From an uncultured SAR86 cluster bacterium (GTDB taxonomy: Bacteria; Pseudomonadota; Gammaproteobacteria; Magnimaribacterales; D2472), in NCBI GenBank assembly GCA_902547295.1, contig CACCNJ010000005.1, positions 1-64,000 on the forward strand: a stretch of DNA of 64,000 nucleotides, written 5' to 3'. Positions within the stretch are counted from its first letter, which is position 1, and each line of letters starts with the position of its first letter. Below are positions 15,235 through 17,667 of the stretch, piece after piece. A program made the translations under genes and the position numbers. Below the pieces are notes generated by a model. The model did not search any database and was not told where the DNA came from. It saw only the letters and a list, made by a program, of their open reading frames with translations.

Positions 15235-17667
15235 ATGAAAAAAATAACGAAAATATTTTATCTTTTGGTTTTGATTTTTAATCAAAATTTCTTATTTAGT
15301 AATATTTTAGAATCTGATGTTTTTGTGGAAAACAATACTAATAGTTCATGCATGATATATCAGCCATATTTAGGTGTTGTAAAGGATGCAGAAAGCTTAG
15401 ATATAAAGTCTGATAAATTTGAAATAACAGACGAGAAAGTTTTGATATTGAATGATAATGTGCGAATTGATTTCCCTGAGGGCATTCTCAATGCCGGTAA
15501 AGCAAGAATTGATCAAGAAAATGGTTTTGTTAATTTTAAAAAAGGTGGCGAACTTATATTAAAAGACTATTTTTTTAATTCAGAGGAAGGAATCTTTGAT
15601 AGGAATAAGTTATTTGTAGACTTCACTGACGGGGAAACTTACATAAACAATAGAGGTTTTGTAATTAGCTTCAAAAAACTAACTGGTAATCTAGATAATC
15701 AAATAACTTTAGAAGACATATCAATGACTTCATGCAAAGATCCAAAAAATGGCTGGAAGTTAAATGCTGAAAGCATAACGCTAGACGATAATACTATGAG
15801 GGGCTATGCTAAAAAAGTTAAGGTAAACGCATTTGATAGAACTATCTTAAGGATACCTTATCTACCGTTTGCCACTTCACAAGAGAGAATGTCTGGTTTT
15901 TTAGAACCTAAGATATCATATTCATCTGATGGGTTAGATTTCATGATTCCATACTATAGAGTTTTATCAGAGACATCTGATTTTACAATTGCGCTCAGAA
16001 ATATATCGGATAGAGGTCTAGGTTTTGAAGCAAATTCTAGAAATCTCCACGGAAATTATAACCTAAGAAGTATTGATTTTATTTATTTTAATAATGATAA
16101 AGAGTATGAAAGTATCTATCCATCAGATTCTGATTCAAGGTGGGCATTTAGCATAAATGATTCTTTTGGTGATAAAAAAAATTTTTGGGTAGATGTAGAT
16201 TGGTCAAAGTCATCAGATAGTTTGGTTTTGAGAGATATTCCAGGAGACATTACATCAATTGGAAGTCAAAGAGAACAAAGTTTAAAACAAAATGTAAAAA
16301 TTAATGGTGCATTTAAAAATTTTCAAGTTAGTGTTTCTCAAGAAGGGTATCAAGCCTTAAATCCAATTCTTACAAATGGTTATAAAAAATCTCCTTCAAT
16401 AAACTTAAATTATTTTAAAAACTTCAAAAATGTTTCCGTTCATGAGTACTTAAACTATACAAATTTTGTTGCAGATACCATTCACGGGTTCTTTGGTATA
16501 GATAAAAATAATAAATTTAGATCATCTATACCAAACCCTGTTGAAGGAGAGAGAATTTTTTATATGCTAGAAATTTCAAATTCTATGAATTTAAATGGCT
16601 ATCAATTAAATACATCTGTTGGCGTAAGGGGTATTGATTTTGACATTGTTGATAATAAAACAAATCCTAATTCAGTGATGGTTCCAACTTTTAAGTTTGA
16701 TTTAAGTACCTTATTAATCATGAAAAGTGGAATGAAAAGCCATGTATTAAAACCAAGAATATTTTATGGGTATGTTGGGCATGAAGAACAAGATGATAAT
16801 CCTGTCTTCGATACTTATAAGTTGCGCATGATGAATCAGGTATTTAATCTTAATCGCTTCACCGGAATGGATAGAATTGGTGACCAAAATTTTTATTCAT
16901 TGAGTATGGAATATAAAAGGCGTCAAATGAATATGAATAATATCTCTTTAAAGATAAGTCAAAAATTCTATCTAAAAGACAGAAAAGTATTTATCAATAA
17001 TATGAATATGAATTCAATGCTCTCTGACATGATGTCGAATACTATGAATATGGGAATAATGTCGAATTCAATGAATATGAACACAATGTCTGATTCAATG
17101 GATATGGGAATGATGACTATGATGAATGGTGACAAAGATCCAATAATGATTATGGCTAAATGGATGCCAAATATGAAAACAATGTTTATGGCCTCAGGAA
17201 GCTATTCTGGAGAGATGAAGAAGTTTCCAATGGCAGGACTAACAATAAATCATATGTTTGATAAAGGAAAAGTTGGGTATGCAAAAAGATATACCAGGAT
17301 GACAGGAGATTTTAATCAAACTCTAGACTACTCTGAATTTTTTACTAATCTTAAAATAAAGGACAATGTGAGTTTTGTTGCAGAAGTTAAGAGAGACGAT
17401 GAAAATAGTTCTAATATCGAATCCTCTGTTGGGATTGGATTTGAGAATTGTTGTTTTTCTTTTAGGATCTTAGCTTCAGATAAAAACTTATCGAAGTATC
17501 TGGACGGCTACCGACCTGAAGCATATCAATATTTAGGTGATGCTTGGGATGATATAATTAGAATTGAAAGCAAAAGTAGAATTAATTTTGAATTCGAGCT
17601 AAAAGGATTGAACTCTTCCTTTGAAAAAGTTTCAAGATTCATGAATAATTCACTATTGAGCCACTAA
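15235..17667 (+). CDS. lptD: LPS-assembly outer-membrane protein LptD with a methionine-rich insertion
   Basis: An 810-residue protein with a signal peptide (residues 1-22), a periplasmic OstA-type domain (about 50-180) and a long beta-barrel region. Four cysteines, Cys39, Cys167 and the pair Cys739-Cys740, match the four-Cys disulfide pattern of E. coli LptD. LptD with LptE inserts LPS in the outer leaflet of the outer membrane. It is followed 7 bases later by surA, the chaperone for its folding, and then pdxA-rsmA-apaH, the conserved gammaproteobacterial order. Residues 588-630 are an odd Met/Asn/Ser-rich stretch with a 9-residue tandem repeat (separate entry). Confidence 0.95.
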   Translation: MKKITKIFYLLVLIFNQNFLFSNILESDVFVENNTNSSCMIYQPYLGVVKDAESLDIKSDKFEITDEKVLILNDNVRIDFPEGILNAGKARIDQENGFVNFKKGGELILKDYFFNSEEGIFDRNKLFVDFTDGETYINNRGFVISFKKLTGNLDNQITLEDISMTSCKDPKNGWKLNAESITLDDNTMRGYAKKVKVNAFDRTILRIPYLPFATSQERMSGFLEPKISYSSDGLDFMIPYYRVLSETSDFTIALRNISDRGLGFEANSRNLHGNYNLRSIDFIYFNNDKEYESIYPSDSDSRWAFSINDSFGDKKNFWVDVDWSKSSDSLVLRDIPGDITSIGSQREQSLKQNVKINGAFKNFQVSVSQEGYQALNPILTNGYKKSPSINLNYFKNFKNVSVHEYLNYTNFVADTIHGFFGIDKNNKFRSSIPNPVEGERIFYMLEISNSMNLNGYQLNTSVGVRGIDFDIVDNKTNPNSVMVPTFKFDLSTLLIMKSGMKSHVLKPRIFYGYVGHEEQDDNPVFDTYKLRMMNQVFNLNRFTGMDRIGDQNFYSLSMEYKRRQMNMNNISLKISQKFYLKDRKVFINNMNMNSMLSDMMSNTMNMGIMSNSMNMNTMSDSMDMGMMTMMNGDKDPIMIMAKWMPNMKTMFMASGSYSGEMKKFPMAGLTINHMFDKGKVGYAKRYTRMTGDFNQTLDYSEFFTNLKIKDNVSFVAEVKRDDENSSNIESSVGIGFENCCFSFRILASDKNLSKYLDGYRPEAYQYLGDAWDDIIRIESKSRINFEFELKGLNSSFEKVSRFMNNSLLSH
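17032..17124 (+). repeat. 27-bp in-frame tandem repeat in lptD encoding a Met-rich 9-mer
   Basis: Three imperfect 27-bp units start at 17032, 17059 and 17086 and encode MSNTMNMGI, MSNSMNMNT and MSDSMDMGM, followed by a partial unit MTMM to 17124. Consensus is M-S-(N/D)-(S/T)-M-(N/D)-M-(G/N)-x. The surrounding 43 residues (588-630) hold 17 methionines. The reading frame is kept, so the repeat expanded within a functional gene. Confidence 0.95.

Follow-up and report, generated by a model that had tools for sequence, protein, structure and literature searches.

A methionine-rich loop of the SAR86 LPS translocon LptD, its Met wall and a Met/His insert in LptE: a possible soft-metal device

LptD, the outer-membrane LPS translocon of an uncultured SAR86 cluster bacterium, carries a methionine-rich tandem repeat in an extracellular loop of its barrel (L9), and methionine itself seems to be what selection keeps there. 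The loop is found together with a set of conserved methionines in strands 17-20, on the inferred lumen face (hereafter, the Met wall), and, in the subclade of the bacterium studied, with a Met/His insert in the partner protein LptE. Taking these features together, we see roughly even chances that the LptD-LptE translocon of this SAR86 lineage could double as a soft-metal device, most likely binding Cu(I) and also Ag(I). Three features favour this predicted metal binding: selection specific to methionine, the Met wall inferred to face the lumen, and the LptE insert. In the literature searched, no paper combines LptD with methionine-rich sequences and none deals with SAR86 LptD; the pattern formed by loop, wall and insert is undescribed there. 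To our knowledge, no metal role of LptD has been reported.

The gene lies in a stretch of 64,000 nucleotides (contig CACCNJ010000005.1, positions 1 to 64,000), which we call the window, and comes from a genome of about 32% GC. Its product matches Pfam PF04453 over the cut-off (E 8.9e-29; 101.4 bits against a cut-off of 22.4), and this was the only Pfam domain found in it. The AlphaFold model, built from 50 homologues (pLDDT 79.7, pTM 0.66), has 26 barrel strands and superposes on solved LptD structures with Z 27.6 for 9kn3_A (rmsd 4.6, 680 aligned residues) and Z 27.1 for 5iva_A. The cysteines C39, C167, C739 and C740 are invariant in the first alignment, and C167, C739 and C740 are likewise conserved in a 50-row alignment; paired as two N-terminal and two adjacent C-terminal residues, they fit the disulfide pattern of LptD, the disulfides being predicted. 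From the open reading frames, we take the gene order in the window to be lptD-surA-pdxA-ksgA-apaH. The system is like the LptD/LptE translocons of Escherichia coli, Shigella and Pseudomonas aeruginosa (PDB 4q35, 5iva, 8h1r) in its 26-strand barrel with an N-terminal periplasmic domain, its four conserved cysteines, its lptD-surA-pdxA-ksgA order and the location of lptE between leuS and holA. In contrast, the solved LptD relatives that we aligned have neither the Met-rich L9 nor the Met wall. Two NYXO01 contigs (L072 and L104), titled Euryarchaeota archaeon isolate ARS96, encode a SAR86 LptD at 95% identity and are probably mislabelled or mis-binned.

Table 1. Features of lptD and its product, with positions in the window
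Feature	Position	Strand	Remarks
lptD	15235..17667	+	810-aa outer-membrane LPS translocon barrel; PF04453 and PDB LptD matches
Extracellular loop L9, residues 580-636	16972..17142	+	Between predicted beta17 (567-579) and beta18 (637-646), AlphaFold model
Met-rich core of L9, residues 588-630	16996..17124	+	17/43 Met, zero Cys/His
Three in-frame 27-bp tandem units	17032..17112	+	MSNTMNMGI / MSNSMNMNT / MSDSMDMGM; TRF
Met 545 (loop L8, FTGMDRIGD motif)	16867..16869	+	24/26 genus members
Met 565, 567 (periplasmic turn beta16-beta17)	16927..16935	+	24/26 and 25/26 genus members
Met 638, 640, 644 (beta18, inferred lumen face)	17146..17166	+	Each Met in 22-25/26 genus members
Met 647 (periplasmic turn beta18-beta19)	17173..17175	+	25/26 genus members
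Met 650, 652 (beta19, inferred lumen face)	17182..17190	+	Invariant, 26/26 genus members
Met 666 (beta20, inferred lumen face)	17230..17232	+	24/26 genus members
Met 689 (start of loop L11)	17299..17301	+	25/26 genus members

A preliminary description of this DNA had reported 17 methionines and a threefold 27-bp unit in residues 588-630 of LptD (NNMNMNSMLSDMMSNTMNMGIMSNSMNMNTMSDSMDMGMMTMM), and both figures proved exact by count and by TRF, which reports a period of 27 bp, 3.9 copies and 71% matches at 17010-17115. Its suggestion of a surface loop in the barrel half was supported when the barrel was modelled: the insertion sits between beta17 and beta18 and, since odd-numbered strands run outward, the loop joining them is extracellular L9, adjoining L8. 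The loop core (589-631) is disordered in the model, with pLDDT below 50, and the model thus gives no loop shape. The methionine density is exceptional within the sample. The best 45-residue window of LptD holds 17 methionines, against 8 in the runner-up among 503 ORFs (556 kb of sampled stretches, about half of the genome), so that no comparable Met-dense protein was found among them, and no random reordering of the LptD residues reached 17 in 20,000 trials.

The loop varies in length among relatives, as the preliminary description had proposed. Across 26 members of the genus, the region 586-632 spans 22-47 residues with 25-49% Met, and one 9-residue unit is absent in G007 and in G031, although a close relative of each has kept the unit. 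The sister species G051 and G044, of a neighbouring genus, differ by 15 residues, with loops (588-632) of 30 and 15 residues, respectively. The remaining genera of the family have loops of 8-30 residues, with Met down to 0-3 in the distant ones, and beyond the family the L9 region is short and nearly Met-free. Two readings that would have refuted the preliminary description were discarded. The stretch is not a normal barrel strand conserved in all relatives, and the loop is short in other SAR86 genera; nor is it an assembly artefact, because separate assemblies of the genus, from single cells and from metagenomes, also contain it. The compared species are related, and sequence counts are not independent events.

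Such a turnover in a surface loop could reflect escape from phages or predators, the selection evoked in the preliminary description. Phages are known to use LptD as a receptor (PMC12685063, PMC12892993), and L9 is both exposed and variable in length. However, the loop keeps its Met composition even as its sequence and length change, contrary to what escape predicts. Moreover, in the solved LptD-phage complex the main polar contacts are made with EL3-5 and EL11, not with EL9, and the back of the barrel (EL6-EL9) is static when the gate opens (PMC12685063). The strand methionines and the LptE insert would be left unexplained as well, and we regard phage or predator selection as highly improbable as the main cause.

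The codon usage of the loop points to selection for methionine. Pooling the 26 species, ATG makes up 384 of the 396 ATN codons of the loop (97%), compared to 17% in the rest of LptD and to 8% expected under neutrality, as estimated from third positions with four-fold degeneracy. Tested singly, all 13 of the chosen lineages gave p <1e-6 for the ATG excess, with codons treated as independent, which the repeat units are not. Methionine accounts for 93% of the hydrophobic residues of the loop versus 5% elsewhere in LptD, with only 9 Leu and 12 Ile beside the 384 Met. In an AT-rich genome, a loop kept only for hydrophobicity should come to consist largely of Ile and Leu; selection is for methionine and not for hydrophobicity as such, and its target seems to be the thioether. 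The same data bear on neutral repeat slippage, by which an unconstrained surface loop would have grown from a chance Met-rich seed. The gain and loss of 27-bp units between close species is what slippage would produce, and non-synonymous change in the loop is often above that in the rest of the gene. Nevertheless, unselected ATG should decay to ATA and ATT in such a genome, and the 97% ATG includes lineages that cannot be aligned in the loop. Slippage also fails to account for near-invariant Met positions in non-repeat strands and for the same trend in LptE, an unlinked locus, and we hold it to be very unlikely.

The Met enrichment of LptD extends past the 588-630 box of the preliminary description. 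Methionine at positions 545, 565, 567, 638, 640, 644, 647, 650, 652, 666 and 689 is kept, at each site, in 22-26 of the 26 genus members (Table 1). In strands 17-20, 186 Met occurrences fall on the inferred lumen face versus 5 on the lipid face, the faces being assigned from hydropathy averaged over every second residue in out-of-genus species rather than from coordinates. The wall positions are mostly polar in distant genera, and those of beta18 (638, 640 and 644) are there mostly polar or other residues. Neighbouring genera have most of the Met wall with a shorter loop, so that the wall probably preceded the long loop. Wall and loop Met counts correlate (Spearman 0.88 over 33 representatives, or 0.75 when only the Met clade is considered; uncorrected for phylogeny). 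The G056/G037 lineage has few methionines in wall and loop alike, and Met 565 and Met 567 are both absent from G015, whose loop is the shortest in the genus.

In known systems, the products of lptD and lptE form one complex. In the genome studied (G000), lptE lies outside the window, on a contig other than that of lptD, between leuS and holA (G000:C13:13235-13756). The idea that LptE had been lost, with the loop as its substitute, could thus be discarded. The identification rests on a lipoprotein gene in leuS-holA synteny, on a Cys 19 that is invariant in SAR86 LptE and on a SAR86 LptE profile that matches the solved LptE 2n8x (hmmsearch, E 4e-4). Pfam PF04390 (LptE) gave zero matches in the own genome or for the LptE protein itself, which may be a limit of the Pfam model. 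The same Pfam model misses LptE in nearly all of 60 genomes of the SAR86 order, where synteny and the clade profile recover it (L175:4236-4757).

In the window's subclade, LptE carries a length-variable Met/His insert (SMKMDHSMHSNHSMQMNH). Eleven species, all close relatives of the window's bacterium, bear the variable form SKSMKMDHSMHSNHSMQMNH, which fills 6 to 30 alignment columns. A 22-residue scan of Met+His+Cys density over the 503 ORFs, to which the LptE locus had been deliberately added, placed LptD first and LptE second, and the sole DNA match to the codon pattern M[DN]HxM in the whole own genome falls within LptE. The insert (SKSMKMDHSMHSNHSMQMNHSNK) sits in a hairpin aligning to the last hairpin of solved LptE and adjoins the position of the E. 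coli PIS117-119 site, which matters for LptD oxidation and assembly (PMC6164715). In the closed state, LptE Thr95 is in contact with EL4 at the outer side (PMC12685063); the insert hairpin, being opposite to the Thr95 side, should be directed to the periplasmic end. One gain on the tree suffices to explain the insert, G011 aside. This genome (SAR86A, scaffold JH611157) was left out as evidence: its lptD neighbourhood (L074/L002) has 96% DNA identity to the window over 14 kb, versus only about 71% for leuS-lptE-holA (L176) on the same scaffold, which is therefore recombined or chimeric. Most Met-loop species have no LptE insert; the role of the loop, whatever it is, therefore does not depend on the LptE part.

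Flexible methionine bristles have a precedent in the M domain of the signal recognition particle. In a similar manner, L9 might fold into the barrel mouth and pack against the Met wall, so as to close the lumen or to fit a changed LptE. The covariation of wall and loop counts, the replacement by Met of residues mostly polar in distant genera and the difference of LptE in the same subclade are all coherent with such a plug. On the other hand, Leu and Ile could do much of that job and are nearly absent from the loop, the LptE insert is polar and His-rich, and the placement of the loop in the lumen is unsupported by the model. For these reasons, we consider a plug unlikely.

The putative soft-metal binding by LptDE can be compared to known methionine-based copper systems. 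The nearest functional precedent is OprC of P. aeruginosa: 11 of its 16 visible methionines are strung out as a track that leads from the surface in the direction of the copper site, and Ag(I), standing for Cu(I), is bound at three-Met clusters (PMC8610252). SAR86 LptD is alike in being an outer-membrane barrel with methionines leading inward from the surface. Conversely, OprC belongs to the TonB receptors, with a plug and a principal site of the type CxxxM-HxM, and SAR86 LptD has neither the plug domain nor such a site: we found no TonB-dependent receptor domain in it with Pfam, and no CxxxM in the protein sequence. The low-complexity motifs of L9 and of the LptE insert (MxM, MxxM, MDHSM) presumably resemble, in an unscored comparison, those of the CueO Met-rich helix, the PcoA/CopA MDHxxM repeats and the Ctr1 ectodomain. 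Those hosts are dedicated copper oxidases or transporters, whereas the SAR86 host is an essential LPS translocon.

By analogy, the methionines of L9 could act as an outer collector of Cu(I), and those of the inner wall of strands 17-20 and of the periplasmic turns could line up as a track on the barrel back. The LptE insert, of the MDHSM type, might contribute one more Met/His site, either inside that lumen or at the end that faces the periplasm. The hold of three-thioether clusters on Cu(I) would be weak, as it is in the methionine track of OprC. Since the barrel back is static on gate opening, a site in that part could exist without interfering with LPS insertion. The purpose might be surface buffering of Cu(I), in cells seemingly without CopA, multicopper oxidase and CusA, or the passing of copper inward to the aa3 oxidase; as the Met positions reach the periplasmic turns, we lean slightly towards capture and guidance over buffering.

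The gene context gives no support to a metal role. A CopA-type ATPase was found in 0/60 SAR86 relatives, with the same search positive in 14/14 control genomes; a multicopper oxidase domain was found in 0/60, a CusA/CzcA-type pump over the cut-off in 0/44, and PCuAC in none of the family members searched. Many of the searched genomes are incomplete, but we consider the pooled absence strong. The SAR86 order thus seems to be devoid of CopA-type ATPase, multicopper oxidase and CusA/CzcA-type pump, and the searches for copper detoxification genes, linked to lptD or genome-wide, returned none. No copper operon or regulon accompanies the loop, which in the window's species has zero Cys and His, and LptD has no recognisable high-affinity site. 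The own genome encodes COX1, COX2 and Cox11, and on this gene content the cell requires copper, for an aa3-type oxidase. In the same genome, a stretch rich in His, Asp and Glu (HHMDEDEHHEDEEDHHEGEDEH) lies in a 753-aa ORF (L145:7335-9593, contig C7); it may be a zinc-type loop belonging to an outer-membrane receptor.

A redox role would predict the choice of Met over Ile too. As an oxidant sink, the surface and lumen methionines would intercept oxidants such as H2O2 in sunlit water, shielding the essential translocon and its disulfides, and an exported methionine sulfoxide reductase would regenerate part of the oxidised residues. A candidate enzyme exists: the genome encodes an MsrA-thioredoxin-MsrB fusion with a signal-like N-terminus (L146:2873-4237, contig C1), and MsrA occurs in 42/44 relatives, with matches in long open frames across the order. 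However, Msr is just as frequent in genera that do not have the loop, and a periplasmic reductase would be out of reach of an outside loop. Furthermore, an oxidant sink leaves unexplained the His residues and the MDHSM motif of the LptE insert, as well as the near-invariant single positions in strands 18-19. We judge it rather unlikely.

Returning to metal binding, a more specific proposal is that LptDE provides a TonB-independent entry route for Cu(I), or a surface buffer, standing in for copper systems that seem to have been lost; we find this doubtful at present. LptD, an antibiotic target, is both essential and conserved, and SAR86 are among the most abundant bacteria of the surface ocean. 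If soft-metal binding by LptDE is true, the LPS translocon, an essential outer-membrane machine, would hold a second job. If the metal is copper, this would show how a streamlined cell handles Cu(I) seemingly without CopA, multicopper oxidase or CusA.
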